DNA of 64,000 nt from Aminobacterium colombiense DSM 12261 (GTDB lineage Bacteria > Synergistota > Synergistia > Synergistales > Aminobacteriaceae), in the NCBI RefSeq assembly GCF_000025885.1, contig NC_014011.1, positions 1,240,001-1,304,000 on the forward strand, given 5' to 3'. A program made the position numbers and the translations under genes. Shown piece after piece: positions 4,279-11,718 of the stretch (its first letter is position 1; each line of letters begins with the position of its first letter). The notes under the pieces were generated by a model, which searched no databases, had not been told where the DNA came from, and worked only from the letters and a program-made list of their open reading frames with translations.

Positions 4279-4733
4279 GTTTTCGCCGGTTCCTCTGTTT
4301 CCTTCGGAAGGTGGACAAGAATATTACACGGAGCATGACGCACAACCTTAGCCGCTACGCTTCCAATGAAGAAGCGTTCAAGATTGCTCAGTCCCCGATG
4401 GCCGATGAGTATTAGTTCATATTTATTTTTTTCTGCCATCCTCAAAATCTCTTCGTATGGTGTTCCAGTGGCCAGCACAAACTCAAAGGGTGTGGCAGAA
4501 GCCCCTGACTCCCTCATGCCCTTTTCAATCATGTTGAGGAACGACTGGCGGATAGAATCTTCATTATAGTGAGGAGGATAGTCTACATAGCCTGGTATGG
4601 TCAGATCAATACGAGTTACGACATGAATAAAATCCAAGCGCTCAATACTATTTTTCTCAGCAAAACGAAAGGCGTAACTAATAAGTGACTGACTGTTTTG
4701 ACTCTGGTCGATAGCTACCAAAGCTTTTTTCAT
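4275..4733 (-). CDS. Universal stress protein (UspA family)
   Basis: Cytoplasmic UspA-fold protein of about 152 residues. The C-terminal half has the ATP-binding motif of the family, GHRGLSNLERFFIGSVA, followed by the usual VVRHAPCNILV strand. Two in-frame ATGs are present at 4739 and 4733. The AGGAGG lies one base from the first and seven from the second, so 4733 is chosen. It is the first gene of a two-gene operon with the cupin, behind a good promoter at 4760-4789. Confidence 0.9.
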   Translation of the reverse strand: MKKALVAIDQSQNSQSLISYAFRFAEKNSIERLDFIHVVTRIDLTIPGYVDYPPHYNEDSIRQSFLNMIEKGMRESGASATPFEFVLATGTPYEEILRMAEKNKYELILIGHRGLSNLERFFIGSVAAKVVRHAPCNILVHLPKETEEPAKT

Positions 4734-4759
4734 ATTCATCCCTCCTTTCGGTTAGAAGT

Positions 4760-4789
4760 ATTATAAACTAAATATAGAGAATTTTGCAA
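4760..4789 (-). promoter_or_regulatory. Promoter of the usp-cupin operon
   Basis: Minus strand TTGCAA, 18-base spacer, TATAAT, about 20 bases upstream of the ribosome binding site. Confidence 0.55.
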
Positions 4790-4904
4790 TGATGTATGCT
4801 AAGAAATATTTTCATTATTTCGTTGCCGAACAGAACAAAGAGTGATAGTCTTTCTCATGGTCAACAAATTAGAATTGAAGAGGAAACAGGCGGAGGTAAC
4901 GGGA

Positions 4905-6158
4905 ATGAAAATACAGGTTAACTCAGAGATTGGGAAGCTTCGTGCCGTCATTATGCAACCTCCTGGGAAAGGCATCGAACGATGCACTCCCCTTAATATC
5001 GGTGCTCTCGCATGGGACGCCGTTCCAAGCCCCCATAAAGCGGAAGACGAGCATAAGAAATGGGTTGCCACAGTAGAAAAATTTGGAGCCAGAGTTTTTC
5101 TAATGGAAGATCTTTTGCGAAAGATCCTTTCTGTTTCGAAAGTAAAAAAGGAGCTTATCTCTCAACTGGTTCAAACTGAAGAATCCTTTATTACAAGGCA
5201 GACTATGGACGTATTGCAAGAGTATCTTTTAGGTCTCTCTGCTCCTAAACTTGTAGACCAGTTGTTATTTGGTATAACAAAAGATGAGCTTAATAAAGCA
5301 GCCGGAGAGGTTTCCCTTGTAGACCTGGTGGATAAGAAAAATGAGTGGTGCCTCTTCCCCATGTCTAATGTACTCTATTCAAGAGATCCCGCCGCTGTGC
5401 TGGGAAACGGCATTGTTTACGGCAATATGTTTAATCGGGATCGAATTAAAGAGCCCTATTGTATTCGAGCTATTTTTAAACATCATCCTGAATTTCGAAA
5501 TTTGGAATTTAAAACCTGGTATGGAGAAGATCCTGATGATGCTACCCCTGTAGAGGGAGGAAACGTCCATTGTTATAGCCCCAACGTATTTATTATTGGC
5601 ATTAATGAACGAACCCACCCAGCTTCTATCGAAAAGATCGCACAAAGGACAATGGAAGATGGAGCGATCACGGATGTGCTGGCACTGATGTTCGAAAATC
5701 CGAGACTGAGCTCTACAGATTCCATAGGGTTGACTGTGCATGTTGACATGTTCCTCAATATGATTGATTATGATGCCTTTCTTTTCTTTCCTTATATAGA
5801 AAAGAAGATCACTGTGCTTCATATTACCCGCGGCAAGGGGGGGAGGCTTCATGTCAAACGGGAAAGCTCTCTTTTCGGCGCTATTAAAAAAGTGTTGAAA
5901 CTTGATAGTATACGTATTATCAAGGTGGGAGGGGATGAAAGCGAAGCCGTTGCCTTTTCAGAACAGAGAGCTGGCTCTGGAGGAAACACTTTCAACCTTG
6001 AGCCGGGTAAAGTCTGTATATGGGATCGAAATGTAGCGACTATGAAGGCCCTTGAAAAAGGCGGAATAGATGTAGTAGCCGTGGAAGCTGACGAGCTGGT
6101 CAAAGGGGGAGGGGGCCCCCGCTGCTCCACCATGCCTCTCTGGAGAGACGATATTTAG
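4905..6158 (+). CDS. arcA: Arginine deiminase
   Basis: Hydrolyses L-arginine to citrulline and ammonia, the first step of the ATP-yielding arginine deiminase pathway. It is 417 residues from the chosen ATG, which has GGAGG eight bases upstream; an ATG at 4842 would add a 21-residue tail with no ribosome site. Guanidino-modifying-enzyme motifs are all visible: SRDP near residue 160, VEGGNVH near 220, the His-x-Asp motif LTVHVDMF, and the nucleophile Cys407 in GGGGPRCSTMPL near the C-terminus. The carbamate kinase, ornithine transcarbamylase and antiporter genes are not adjacent, so the gene stands alone between oppositely oriented neighbours and has its own terminator. Confidence 0.95.
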   Translation: MKIQVNSEIGKLRAVIMQPPGKGIERCTPLNIGALAWDAVPSPHKAEDEHKKWVATVEKFGARVFLMEDLLRKILSVSKVKKELISQLVQTEESFITRQTMDVLQEYLLGLSAPKLVDQLLFGITKDELNKAAGEVSLVDLVDKKNEWCLFPMSNVLYSRDPAAVLGNGIVYGNMFNRDRIKEPYCIRAIFKHHPEFRNLEFKTWYGEDPDDATPVEGGNVHCYSPNVFIIGINERTHPASIEKIAQRTMEDGAITDVLALMFENPRLSSTDSIGLTVHVDMFLNMIDYDAFLFFPYIEKKITVLHITRGKGGRLHVKRESSLFGAIKKVLKLDSIRIIKVGGDESEAVAFSEQRAGSGGNTFNLEPGKVCIWDRNVATMKALEKGGIDVVAVEADELVKGGGGPRCSTMPLWRDDI

Positions 6159-7483: not shown

Positions 7484-8989
7484 TCATGCAGGAAAAATAA
7501 CATATGTGTAGAACATGGCTAAGGATCCGAAGAAGAGAAAGAAACAGAAGGAAGGAATAAGGGTTTTTCGCATCACTTCCCCTTCACGACCCAAAATGGC
7601 TACACAAGCACACACTGCTACCACGTTGTTTGGACATATCATGTTGCCAATAGCTCCCCCCGTGTTCTGCGCTGCAACCACAGGAAGAACATTGATGGAA
7701 AGATTCTTAACCGCTTCTACGTGTAATGGATTAAACATCAGATTGGACCCGAGGTTCGTTCCTGTAACAAAGCTTCCAATCTGACCGATGAGCACTGCCA
7801 CTGCGGGATAGAAGAAACGGGCAATGGTTGCAAAGGTGACAGCCAGAGTGCTTATCTGCCCAGAAAGTTTCATACAATTCACCATGGCAAGAAGCAACCC
7901 CATAGCAACAAGTGCCGGGATAACCCGTTTGAAAGCTTTTACAGCGGATGATACAAAAAATTGGCTATACCCTAATATAAATGAAGCAACAAAGGCACTT
8001 GCTAAAATAACTGTACCTACCCAGACAGTGTAGCCGCCGCCAAAAGAAACAAGAGTTTTCAAGGGGAATGAAAGACGGACAACGACAAGTAACGCACTCA
8101 AGATGAGATAGGGCAACAATGAACGAATAAAGCTGAGTTGGGAACTCCTTTCTTCAGAGGTTTCTTCTGATAGGGATTCATTCTGAGAGTTAAATCTATA
8201 CTCTTCCGGCATTGCCGCGTCTTTTCTGAACCAGAGATATGCTCCAAACAAGAAGGTCCCAGTCATTCCTCCGATCAAACTGGTCAGTTCTGTAACGGAA
8301 ATCAGAAAGTTGCTCATGGTGAAGTTAATGCTTCCCATCATGAGGCCCATGACAACAATATCCTTCCAAATGCCCTTGAAGGCCTTTTTACCGAAGACAA
8401 ATCCGATAATAAGAACAGGAAGCAACAAGTAGCCCAGGGCCATAAAGCGACCGGTCATGGCAGAAACAGGAACAAAGTCAAGACCGGCAGCACCTGAGCC
8501 AACCACTGTTGTAACACCTGCCCCACCCCAGCATACTGGGCACGAGTTGCCAATAAGGCAAGCTGCGGCTGCAATAACGGGATCCATTCCGAGACCTACA
8601 AGGAAGGGGGCTGCCAGAGCTGCCGGTGCACCGGCACCTGCAGCGCCTTCAAGAAATGTTCCAAAGGGAATGGCTAAAAATAATACCATGAGCCTTTTAT
8701 CCCGAGTGACGTGAGAAAGCCCTTGCTTAATAGAATCCATAGCTTTCGAATCCACCATTATGATCAGGAGAGTAAAGGCCGCAAATATAAGCCATACGAT
8801 TCTAATTCCATCGAGAAAACCATTCCAGCTAGTAAGCAAAAGTGCTTCTACCGGGGATTTAAAAACCAGAAACCCAAGAAAAAGAGCGACTATCCAGCTA
8901 ACAGGAGCAACGACTTTCGAAGAGTAGTTAAGACCTGCCATTCCAACAATAATAATTGCAATAGGCAGCAATGCGAGTAAAAAATTCAT
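7484..8989 (-). CDS. LctP-family (lactate permease) transporter
   Basis: 501-residue integral membrane protein with about 13 hydrophobic segments, of the lactate/glycolate permease family. Conserved segments include FGTFLEGAAGAGAPAALAAP and GNSCPVCWGG in the first half and QIGSFVTGTNLGSNL in the second. The start at 8989 is chosen because GGAGG lies eight bases upstream and the protein then begins with a transmembrane helix; a reading frame extends upstream through the attenuator terminator but is not expected to be translated. It is co-transcribed with larA. The substrate could be lactate or another 2-hydroxy or 2-oxo monocarboxylate. Expression is probably governed by the Ile/Leu/Val leader at 9074-9293. 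Confidence 0.9.
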   Translation of the reverse strand: MNFLLALLPIAIIIVGMAGLNYSSKVVAPVSWIVALFLGFLVFKSPVEALLLTSWNGFLDGIRIVWLIFAAFTLLIIMVDSKAMDSIKQGLSHVTRDKRLMVLFLAIPFGTFLEGAAGAGAPAALAAPFLVGLGMDPVIAAAACLIGNSCPVCWGGAGVTTVVGSGAAGLDFVPVSAMTGRFMALGYLLLPVLIIGFVFGKKAFKGIWKDIVVMGLMMGSINFTMSNFLISVTELTSLIGGMTGTFLFGAYLWFRKDAAMPEEYRFNSQNESLSEETSEERSSQLSFIRSLLPYLILSALLVVVRLSFPLKTLVSFGGGYTVWVGTVILASAFVASFILGYSQFFVSSAVKAFKRVIPALVAMGLLLAMVNCMKLSGQISTLAVTFATIARFFYPAVAVLIGQIGSFVTGTNLGSNLMFNPLHVEAVKNLSINVLPVVAAQNTGGAIGNMICPNNVVAVCACVAILGREGEVMRKTLIPSFCFFLFFGSLAMFYTYVIFPA

Positions 8990-9073
8990 AGAATACTTCC
9001 TCCAATTCTCTTTTGAAATAGTGTAATCGTAGCTGCGGAGTACTCCATATATCTTCCCGGGATATTTGGGTAT

Positions 9074-9108
9074 AAAAAAAGAGGCCGGGACCTTAAGGTC
9101 CCGACCTC
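9074..9108 (-). terminator. Attenuator terminator ahead of the lctP-larA operon
   Basis: Minus strand GAGGTCGGGACC, loop TTAA, GGTCCCGGCCTC, then seven T. The 12-bp stem holds one G-U pair. It lies 84 bases before the permease start and 16 bases after the leader-peptide stop, so transcription of the operon must pass it. Its 5' arm (9097-9108) can instead pair with 9141-9152, inside the last leader codons: GGTCCT with GGGACC and CCTC with GAGG. Confidence 0.75.
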
Positions 9109-9123
9109 TCAACAGCCCATGCG

Positions 9124-9213
9124 TCACAGAACTGTCGCCCGAGGATAGGACCGACATGTAATAATGAGCACGAGTATAAGAATAAGAACTATTAATATCG
9201 TTGCTTCTCTCAC
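9124..9213 (-). CDS. Branched-chain-amino-acid leader peptide (29 residues)
   Basis: A GTG-initiated ORF nine bases after AAGGAGG on the minus strand. Residues 6-18 are ILIVLILILVLII, thirteen consecutive branched-chain residues (six Ile, five Leu, two Val), followed by a polar tail TCRSYPRATVL and TGA. The tail codons contain the strand (9141-9152) that can pair with the terminator 5' arm. A ribosome stalled for charged Ile, Leu or Val tRNA would leave that strand free to form an antiterminator; a ribosome reaching the stop would cover it. This matches the ilv-type attenuation design. The alternative is a tiny membrane peptide with one helix. Confidence 0.65.
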   Translation of the reverse strand: MREATILIVLILILVLIITCRSYPRATVL

Positions 9214-9264
9214 GGTCCGTTTCCTCCTTTTTTTAAGCAAACTGTTCTGATGCAATGACACGAG

Positions 9265-9293
9265 ATGTTACCAAAGCTTTGAGTTTTTGTAAA
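9265..9293 (-). promoter_or_regulatory. Promoter of the lctP-larA leader
   Basis: Minus strand TTTACA, 17-base spacer, TAACAT preceded by TGG (extended -10). The predicted start near 9258 gives an untranslated leader of about 45 bases before the peptide. Confidence 0.5.
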
Positions 9294-9336: not shown

Positions 9337-10428
9337 TTATCGATCCAGACAGGCAAAGAGGTCTGAAGCTTTTTCAGGCGTAGCGATCCTGACATAATTC
9401 TTGCCCAGATTTGGGTAATCTTCACCAGACCTTACGTCGATTCCCTTTGAAGCAAAAACTTCTCCCAAATGAACATCTCGATCTGAAACAGAAACGAGAG
9501 ATATGGGGCAGCTGTTATATGTAGTTGCCACTCTATATCCTCTTTCTTTGAGTCCGGAAACGAGTACTTCTTTCTGTTCCCCTATCAATTTACGCACTGT
9601 TTCGAGAAGAGTCCCGCCTCGCAGGGCTTCCCGTGCTAAAAGGGCGCTTACTGAGGGCATTGGGAAGGGGAGGTCGCCTTTATCGTAGAATTTTCCAAGA
9701 TTTCCGCTAAACACCCCATAGCCCACACGAGTTCCAGCAAAGTGAAATCCTTTTGTCAATGTTCGAGTCACAATTACGTTCTCATATCTCGGCACAAGCT
9801 GCATGGCCGACGCTTCTTTCGGAGCATAATCACAATAGGCCTCATCCACTATGACAATGACTCCAAGTTTATGGGCCCTGGCTACAAGTGCTTCTATCTG
9901 GTCAAGAGGGATAAGCTGCCCTGTGGGATTATTAGGGTTATCTACATAGAGCAGGGTATGCCCTTCATTCAACGCGCCAAGCAATGGGTCCACATGAAAA
10001 CTGAAATTGTCTTCAGGGTTCATGGCAATGCCTTCGAAGCGAGCCCCGGTGACCCGCACTTCAGTAATATATTCTACAAACTGAGGAATATAGCCCAATA
10101 CTGAAGAACGATCATCAAGAAACACCTTGTTGATCCTTTCTAATACCTGCATGGAACCATAACCAACTTTTACCTGATCTTCTCTTATGTCTGCAAAGTC
10201 TTTCCAGTAATGACATATTTCTTCCAAAAGGGTTTTGTAAGAAGTATCCCCCGTTTTCCACATATTTGAAACCCAGTCAAAATTGCGAATGAATTCTTCG
10301 ACCCCCGGAACGTGAGGCAATGTCGACTCCAGGCCATTGCAATTAAGGACTACAGGATAGTGAGCTTCGTGAATGTAACTCCCCCGCTCAAAATCTTTGA
10401 GGTGGGGTTTTACTTTAGGGTTCCACAT
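9337..10428 (-). CDS. Class I/II PLP aminotransferase, HisC/aromatic type
   Basis: 363-residue fold-type-I aminotransferase. It shows the PLP-binding NPNNPTG (residues 164-170), VDEAYCDY with the Asp that contacts the pyridine nitrogen, Lys226 in TRTLTKGF as the Schiff-base lysine, and a C-terminal YVRIATP arginine for the substrate carboxylate. The family includes histidinol-phosphate and aromatic aminotransferases. The start at 10428 has AGGAGG upstream and overlaps the transporter gene by 14 bases, so the two are translationally coupled. No histidine genes are nearby, and the operon leader contains aromatic codons, so an aromatic amino-acid aminotransferase is the favoured role (inference). 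Confidence 0.85.
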   Translation of the reverse strand: MWNPKVKPHLKDFERGSYIHEAHYPVVLNCNGLESTLPHVPGVEEFIRNFDWVSNMWKTGDTSYKTLLEEICHYWKDFADIREDQVKVGYGSMQVLERINKVFLDDRSSVLGYIPQFVEYITEVRVTGARFEGIAMNPEDNFSFHVDPLLGALNEGHTLLYVDNPNNPTGQLIPLDQIEALVARAHKLGVIVIVDEAYCDYAPKEASAMQLVPRYENVIVTRTLTKGFHFAGTRVGYGVFSGNLGKFYDKGDLPFPMPSVSALLAREALRGGTLLETVRKLIGEQKEVLVSGLKERGYRVATTYNSCPISLVSVSDRDVHLGEVFASKGIDVRSGEDYPNLGKNYVRIATPEKASDLFACLDR

Positions 10429-11620
10429 GCACTTTCGCCTCCTCAAATTTATCAGGAACTGCCGGCATCTCTTTGCCACGCAGCCTCATAAGCCCTACAG
10501 TAGCCAGAGGAATAACCATCACCGCAAGAAAATACCACGCCATGAAAGAATAACCGCGAGCTATGAGAGCGACAAGACCGGCCTTGGCACAGATGAAGCA
10601 AACCACTAAAACGGCAAGCCCTACAACACCTCTCATCTTCGGAGACATCTCTCCTCCCTTTTCCTGGTAAACCGAATTGATCCGCTCATTGAGTCCGTGT
10701 ACAAAACCCGTAATTGTTTCTATACTTGTTCCAAAAAGCATCAACACATAGGCAGAAAGAAGAACTCCCCCTCCAAGGTGGCCTTTAAGAATGCCAAAGA
10801 TAGGAACCGACTCCTCCAGAACTGCCGGAAAAACAGGAGCCATGGCAAGGTATTCGATAAAGGCAGGAATCATCATAAGGATTGAAGCCACTATGCCGTT
10901 GATGACAGCATCCCGTCTTGTTTTTATTATATCTTGTAACGCATACAGCACCAGAAGAAATGAGACCATATTGTAAAGGGTGTATTTTATGCCCCCCATA
11001 AGCCAATTTGAACTTGTCGCGACACCATGGTCTCGAATAAAACTGCCAAAAACCCCATCCATTCCAAAGTGTCGAACTGTAGCTACAAGGAAAATAAACA
11101 TTACGGCATACAGGAAGAATGACCAGTATGAAAGAATGGTTGAAATTACTTTTCCTCCGGCAAACAGGAGAATGGAAGTACCTACAAGAAGGACAGTTAC
11201 GCCAACCCAGTAGGAAATGCCAAACCATTGCTGAAGAATGGTTCCAGCCGCAGAGGATAAAATGCCGCCCACAAGAACCACCAGGAAGATATATCCCGCT
11301 TCAAAAACAAGCCAGGTTGAGCCAGGAAGTAGGCTCTTAAAGAAGCTGCGGTAATTGTACAGACGAAATTTGCGAGCATAATCAAAGGTAAGGATGCCTA
11401 CAAGAGCAAAACAAACAGTAGAAACTACCATGCCGTATAAACCCTCGGCAAGTCCGTTCATCATGAAGAATTCAACAAGCTCCCTGCCTGTTGCGTATCC
11501 GCCGCCAATAAGCACAGACTGACATAAAAACCCAATCATCAGCCATCGGCTAAACCATTTGACCTGCGTAATATCCAGTAATTTTGAGATGATAGAACCC
11601 TTTGGGGCATCCTTTTTCAT
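10415..11620 (-). CDS. YkvI-like membrane protein, probable amino-acid transporter
   Basis: 401-residue protein with about 11 transmembrane segments, of the COG3949 (YkvI) family, distantly related to APC-type amino-acid transporters. The first helix carries the signature IGGGYATGRELVEFF, a broken helix typical of sodium-coupled LeuT-fold carriers. The ATG at 11620 is chosen (GAGGA 11 bases upstream); an upstream extension would run through the attenuator terminator. The gene overlaps the aminotransferase gene, which implies that the carrier and enzyme share a substrate. The leader at 11719-11912 suggests an aromatic amino acid. Confidence 0.82.
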   Translation of the reverse strand: MKKDAPKGSIISKLLDITQVKWFSRWLMIGFLCQSVLIGGGYATGRELVEFFMMNGLAEGLYGMVVSTVCFALVGILTFDYARKFRLYNYRSFFKSLLPGSTWLVFEAGYIFLVVLVGGILSSAAGTILQQWFGISYWVGVTVLLVGTSILLFAGGKVISTILSYWSFFLYAVMFIFLVATVRHFGMDGVFGSFIRDHGVATSSNWLMGGIKYTLYNMVSFLLVLYALQDIIKTRRDAVINGIVASILMMIPAFIEYLAMAPVFPAVLEESVPIFGILKGHLGGGVLLSAYVLMLFGTSIETITGFVHGLNERINSVYQEKGGEMSPKMRGVVGLAVLVVCFICAKAGLVALIARGYSFMAWYFLAVMVIPLATVGLMRLRGKEMPAVPDKFEEAKVHVEP

Positions 11621-11718
11621 CTTTTTCACCGTCCTCTTAAGAAAATAATTAAAACTCTGTTTCTTGAAATGGGGGCTCCATATCTCTGCTCCTTTCCACC
11701 CCCGAGATATAAAAATAT

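Follow-up and report, generated by a model that had tools for sequence, protein, structure and literature searches.

A putative leader-peptide attenuator responding to branched-chain amino acids in front of a lctP-larA operon in Synergistota

Control by a leader peptide is known from the ilvGMEDA and leuABCD operons of Escherichia coli and from the ilvD leader of Staphylococcus aureus (PMC5794164). These have in common a short open reading frame (ORF) that is led by a Shine-Dalgarno sequence (SD) and rich in Ile, Leu and Val codons, a Rho-independent terminator, an alternative antiterminator and a presumed response to charged tRNA. For racemases of the LarA superfamily, there are published selectivity rules in which the residues F, F, W and E/Q mark lactate racemases (LAR), H/Q and K mark malate racemases, and F or Y at the position of W358 marks the hydrophobic 2-hydroxy-acid racemases (HHRs). 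Substrates of the HHRs include 2-hydroxyisovalerate and 2-hydroxyisocaproate, and the characterized enzymes somewhat favour linear side chains; the native substrates of LarAH10-type racemases are given there as unsettled, and the available passages on HHRs contain no mention of control responding to branched-chain amino acids (BCAA) (PMC11770544).

The sequence-level features that define an ilv/leu-type attenuator, namely an SD-led ORF, control codons, a terminator and a mutually exclusive antiterminator, are all met in front of a lctP-larA operon on the minus strand of the window, by which the whole 64 kb stretch of DNA analysed here is meant; the antiterminator is weak in two of the relatives (L004 and L006). 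The features are the following:

9293-9265, minus strand: sigma-70-like promoter TTTACA-17-TAACAT with TG before the -10 hexamer, from a consensus scan; both hexamers are also conserved in the sister species (L002)
9227-9223, minus strand: Shine-Dalgarno sequence GGAGG of the leader ORF, read from the sequence
Minus strand, around that GGAGG, which it includes: possible segment 1 (GGAGGaaacGGACCG), with complementarity to segment 2; the 1:2 duplex is not significant alone
GTG 9213-9211 to TGA 9126-9124, minus strand: leader peptide ORF VREATILIVLILILVLIITCRSYPRATVL, 29 codons and TGA; the frame is kept in L002
9160..9198, minus strand: control codons 6-18, 13 consecutive Ile/Leu/Val codons (ATA TTA ATA GTT CTT ATT CTT ATA CTC GTG CTC ATT ATT)
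9153-9141, minus strand: segment 2 (CGGTCCTATCCTC), codons 21-25, in the peptide tail; it mimics the 3' arm of the terminator and pairs with the 5' arm as antiterminator
Stem 9110-9081 and T7 9080-9074, minus strand: intrinsic terminator GAGAGGTCGGGACC-TTAA-GGTCCCGGCCTC-TTTTTTT (segments 3 and 4), from a detector and RNAfold
7484..8989, minus strand: lctP-family permease; TIGR00795 289.6 bits, PF02652 293 bits
6182..7474, minus strand: LarA-superfamily racemase of LarAH10/HHR type; NF052525 490.6 bits, selectivity residues and both catalytic His

A sequence-only reading of this DNA had described the promoter, the ribosome site, the 29-codon ORF with its 13 branched-chain residues and the terminator, and both description and coordinates were right. 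It had also proposed that the peptide tail at 9141-9152 pairs with the 5' arm of the terminator; the pairing holds, and the boundary has to be moved to 9153-9141. The terminator stem comprises 14 pairs according to the detector and 12 pairs with -24.3 kcal/mol in RNAfold, while the duplex of segment 2 with the 5' arm amounts to -18.7 kcal/mol. The leader stop is separated from the terminator by 13 nt and the terminator from the lctP start (8989) by 84 nt, and the 181-nt leader as a whole folds with z = -4.2. No leader or riboswitch family in Rfam matches the window leader at gathering score. A "protector" duplex of segments 1 and 2 that would cover the SD of the leader is appealing on inspection, but as an energy statistic it is not significant in most loci. 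Between the terminator and lctP lies a block (9034-9066, minus strand, ATATCCCGGGAAGATATATGGAGTACTCCG) that is nearly invariant in the sister species and contains the 10-bp palindrome GGAGTACTCC, with CCCCGGGAGT seen again in L003 and L004; this block is possibly an operator or an RNA element.

LctP searches of Synergistota yielded seven genomes, including that of the window, with an LctP at least 61% identical to the window's (range 61-84%). In all seven, an SD-led leader ORF of 24-31 codons followed by a terminator stands before lctP, with these leader peptides:

L001 (window): VREATILIVLILILVLIITCRSYPRATVL
L002 (sister species): VCNVEAIVALILILALIIRCRSYPRATVL
L003: MSRDRQSVGIILLVLLSILCGLIL
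L004: MRTNRQPVGIILLGVLLSVPGGLIL
L005: MSRTRRFASSLLALILILTNRGPDLRR
L006: MRAFSAETFILCISTPALSWSSPMTT
L007: MGRSFFKYNLGLLLAIIDVLTCGSSGGVVGV

Six of the seven leaders are clearly rich in branched-chain residues; that of L006 is only weakly so (FILCISTPAL, 4/10, a value reached by 26/400 shuffles). Between the window and its sister species, 17/57 nt are changed in codons 1-19 and 1/33 nt in codons 20-30, as expected if the pairing tail is under constraint at the level of RNA. In the terminator of the sister species G-C is replaced by G-U and U-G by U-A, and the stem stays fully paired.

Segment 2 imitates the 3' arm of the terminator at codons 19-27 in all seven Synergistota leaders. When a ribosome is set codon by codon on the window leader so that only the RNA downstream of it is free to fold, 11 bases of the terminator arm are sequestered with A-site codons 6-17, 9 with codon 18, 5 with codons 19-20 and almost none from codon 21 onwards, a drop which coincides with the end of the Ile/Leu/Val run. 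Broadly the same course, high within the run and falling right after it at codon 18-20, is found in L001, L002, L003, L005 and L007; L004 is the only one of the seven in which this folding gives no drop at the run end, and the switch statistics of L006 and L007 are unremarkable individually. When the switch statistic is summed and compared with shuffled versions of the sequence that follows the run, p is ~1e-4 over five divergent lineages and 5e-5 over all seven leaders. The limits of each run had been drawn by eye on the peptides, which leaves this test not fully blind. The arm-pairing energies alone are moderate in the seven leaders (z -0.1 to -4.4). A further candidate for an attenuator of this type, L008 (G013), was rejected, as it has a long leader and a terminator and no detectable switch. 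By computation, then, the leader, the terminator, the alternative pairing, their conservation and the match of control codons to switch are in place. The sequence-only reading would have been refuted if neither the peptide nor the alternative stems had been conserved in relatives; both are conserved in Synergistota, and the ilv-type attenuation logic it put forward gains support from them and from the switch model, with regulation itself remaining an inference in the absence of transcription data.

Such a leader would work as follows. With all three charged tRNAs plentiful, the ribosome would cross codons 6-18 and cover segment 2, the terminator would form and the transcript would end near 9074. 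If any one of the charged tRNAs ran short, the ribosome would be expected to stall within the run, leaving segment 2 free to pair with the 5' arm of the terminator and permitting read-through into lctP-larA. The reading we favour, with good confidence and without expression or transport data, is a ribosome-mediated attenuator that senses charged Ile, Leu and Val tRNAs before an operon which most likely brings in branched-chain 2-hydroxy acids as BCAA precursors and racemizes them. Candidate substrates may be 2-hydroxyisovalerate, 2-hydroxyisocaproate and 2-hydroxy-3-methylvalerate. The direction of regulation, import as opposed to export, the substrate, and its conversion to 2-oxo acids and then to amino acids are all inferred.

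The composition of the window leader is not readily obtained by chance. Its Ile/Leu/Val content (10/10 residues) was matched in none of 400 dinucleotide shuffles of the 200 nt preceding the terminator, with a best value of 7 among the SD-led small ORFs of the shuffles. A mechanical criterion (SD-led ORF no longer than 62 aa, 7/10 or more Ile/Leu/Val, terminator not more than 60 nt from the stop, both strands) has exactly one match in the window, the lctP leader at 9213-9124, and seven in 332 kb of other loci, six of them directly before lctP and the remaining one in L036 and unrelated to lctP. Taken together, seven of eight matches stand directly before lctP. As the 332 kb were gathered by lctP, this demonstrates positional specificity and not genome-wide rarity.

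Leader peptides are not restricted to lctP in these bacteria. The leuA gene of the window genome (G000, L092) is preceded by the leader MKERYENKNMHAVSSLSLLLGCWFLPGTPAAL and a terminator, an arrangement conserved in L091, L095 and L097 (four genomes); for this leader, too, the pairing energy drops at the Leu codons. This implies that leader-peptide attenuation is normal in the lineage. Synergistota leuA genes with Leu-codon leader peptides and terminators were seen in L091, L092, L093, L095 and L097, with no Rfam family at gathering score for the leaders of L092, L093 and L097.

The identity of the two proteins bears on the substrate. The permease falls below the cut-off of 341 bits for TIGR00795, and its substrates are probably branched-chain 2-hydroxy acids, with transport inferred. 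The racemase is matched best, of all LarA models, by LarAH10 (NF052525), ahead of the malate and lactate racemase models and below the cut-off of 540 bits; LarAH10 also ranks first in all leader-bearing operons that were scored, as well as in the Intestinimonas locus L038. The selectivity residues F176, M177, Y362 and V363, aligned to F175, F176, W358 and T359 of LarA1, form a hydrophobic pocket that fits the HHR rule and not those for LAR, MAR, HGR or GntE, and both catalytic His are kept. An identity as lactate racemase was rejected because it requires F, F, W, E/Q where this protein has F, M, Y, V. The racemase of L032 carries H, and not F/Y, at the W358 position. The window racemase resembles the HHRs (LarAH10/52/66, PMC11770544) in the family model that fits it best, in having F/Y at the position of W358, in its hydrophobic selectivity residues and in both catalytic His; it differs in a score under the curated cut-off and in that its substrate is inferred.

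The neighbours of related lctP genes extend this picture. A dehydrogenase of the L-lactate/L-2-hydroxyisocaproate family adjoins lctP in Oscillospiraceae (L112-L114), in Synergistota (G013 and G135) and in L036, L043 and L055, and for the Oscillospiraceae enzyme 1hyh (L-2-hydroxyisocaproate dehydrogenase) is nearly tied for first place among the structural matches. The gene that follows in L113 and L114 encodes the branched-chain aminotransferase IlvE, identified by 445 bits against a cut-off of 307 in the former and by a near-identical N-terminus in the latter, and in G014 a 2-oxoacid:ferredoxin oxidoreductase lies downstream of lctP. In the Synergistota homologues L060 (G135) and L008 (G013) the L-2-hydroxyisocaproate/lactate-type dehydrogenase stands in place of LarA; a class-wide search for further LctP-HicDH operons gave no additional member. 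Just upstream of the window's leader are a HisC-like aminotransferase (9337-10431, minus strand), a possible source of the transamination step, and a membrane protein of 421 aa with no Pfam/NCBIfam match (10415-11680, minus strand), in an order repeated in the sister species (L116).

Neither ilvB nor ilvC has a match over the cut-off in the window genome or its sister, while leuA is present in the window genome. Imported 2-hydroxyisovalerate, once oxidized, could therefore supply Val and, via LeuA, Leu, an inference for which the dehydrogenase has not been found: no L-HicDH homologue turned up in the seven leader-bearing genomes searched, in a search without positive control. The lack of ilvB and ilvC matches over the cut-off closes the usual acetolactate route from lactate to Val and Leu, which weighs against a true BCAA attenuator on a lactate operon, where lactate imported under BCAA limitation would be converted to pyruvate as a precursor of Val and Leu. 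Membership of the permease in the lactate permease family would suit such an operon, as would the presence of ilvC in four of the eight leader-bearing genomes (G039, G043, G079 and G013), from which it also follows that auxotrophy is not general. With the acetolactate route closed in the window genome and its sister, a racemase signature of HHR and not LAR type, and related lctP genes paired with IlvE in two genomes, a lactate operon is nevertheless unlikely, and the lactate exchange tied to BCAA supply that the earlier reading had offered as its alternative is unlikely in the window genome, where no ilvB or ilvC match exceeds the cut-off. No convincing association exists between the leader and loss of ilvC, which is absent from 4/8 leader genomes as compared with 55/188 in the phylum.

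Support for import of branched-chain 2-hydroxy acids also comes from outside Synergistota. In an Intestinimonas MAG (L038), an Rfam T-box (96 bits, 4682-4914) lies directly before lctP (4998) and larAH10 (6515), with the specifier AUC (Ile), followed by G and CC, as read from the model alignment. No T-box was found up to E 0.5 before the nearest Bacillota homologues (L033, L035, L041, L044 and L036), and its retention in relatives of Intestinimonas could not be traced, with no close lctP in the genus and no Rfam match in family-level loci; the Ile T-box thus remains a single case. Upstream of lctP in L070-L072, Ile/Leu-rich leader ORFs are followed by terminators, and in L036 and L042 hydrophobic ORFs and hairpins occupy the leader position. 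In the Oscillospiraceae leaders arm pairing continues well beyond the Ile/Leu run, without a clean switch in folding. The Oscillospiraceae loci L070-L072 and L112-L114 have lctP with an L-2-hydroxyisocaproate/lactate-type dehydrogenase under Ile/Leu-rich leaders of 70-77 codons that contain an internal GGACGCC/GGCGTCC inverted repeat. Branched-chain tRNA control seems to have evolved at least twice on the lctP family, and this repeated origin is the strongest argument for a branched-chain substrate. That the pair handles branched-chain 2-hydroxy or 2-oxo acids, as had been suggested from the sequence alone, is accordingly backed over plain lactate by the racemase signature, the dehydrogenase and aminotransferase neighbours and the T-box on a homologous operon, with specificity and transport inferred. 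We lean, by no great measure, towards a wider proposal in which this LctP subfamily, together with LarAH10-type racemases or HicDH-type dehydrogenases and IlvE, constitutes a widespread anaerobic salvage of BCAA from environmental 2-hydroxy acids that came under branched-chain tRNA control more than once, through leader-peptide attenuation in Synergistota, through the Ile T-box of a single Intestinimonas and, probably, through separate Ile/Leu-rich leaders in other Oscillospiraceae.

Synergistota ferment amino acids, and carriers of the LctP family could in principle run in either direction. Export of branched-chain 2-hydroxy acids arising from reductive amino-acid disposal during fermentation is thus conceivable; it remains highly improbable, since attenuation of this kind activates the operon under a shortage of charged branched-chain tRNAs, whereas getting rid of excess amino acids would require the reverse, and the Ile T-box on the homologous operon follows the same logic. 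Least plausible is a small membrane protein acting together with the permease, its Ile/Leu/Val run being a transmembrane helix and the terminator merely tuning downstream expression, for although the run is hydrophobic and of membrane-spanning length in L001 and L002 and longer hydrophobic ORFs take the same position in L036 and L042, the stretch of L005 (LLALILIL) is too short for a membrane and that of L006 and L007 is broken, constraint in the pairing tail acts on nucleotides and not on amino acids, the terminator/antiterminator switch is matched to the run end, and leuA is preceded by the same design.

If the attenuator does control uptake of branched-chain 2-hydroxy acids, the pathway can be told from its regulator. 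Genes that carry lactate permease and lactate racemase annotations would then stand under BCAA control in several lineages, a hint at what LarAH10-type racemases act on physiologically, and amino-acid-fermenting anaerobes without ilvB and ilvC would have a way to make Val, Leu and Ile out of hydroxy acids released by their neighbours. In the open-access literature, the only papers searched, neither T-box nor leader-peptide/attenuator control of a lactate permease was found, nor, among the papers listed, any operon linking 2-hydroxyisocaproate, transport and attenuation. The mechanism of attenuation is already known, and it is the target that appears to be undescribed. The T-box of L038 (RF00230) resembles the window attenuator in exerting branched-chain tRNA control by antitermination on the same downstream gene pair and differs in that it senses uncharged tRNA by direct binding, without a leader peptide, in one Bacillota genome. 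The leuA leader of the window genome, and so of the same lineage, is alike in architecture and has a similar terminator core, whereas its control codons are for Leu only (SLSLLLG) and leucine synthesis is what it controls. In the S. aureus ilvD leader the proposed antiterminator captures the poly-U of the terminator (PMC5794164), whereas that of the window pairs segment 2 with the 5' arm. Finally, the known ilv and leu leader attenuators control genes of BCAA synthesis, whereas the one in the window precedes a permease and a nickel-pincer racemase.
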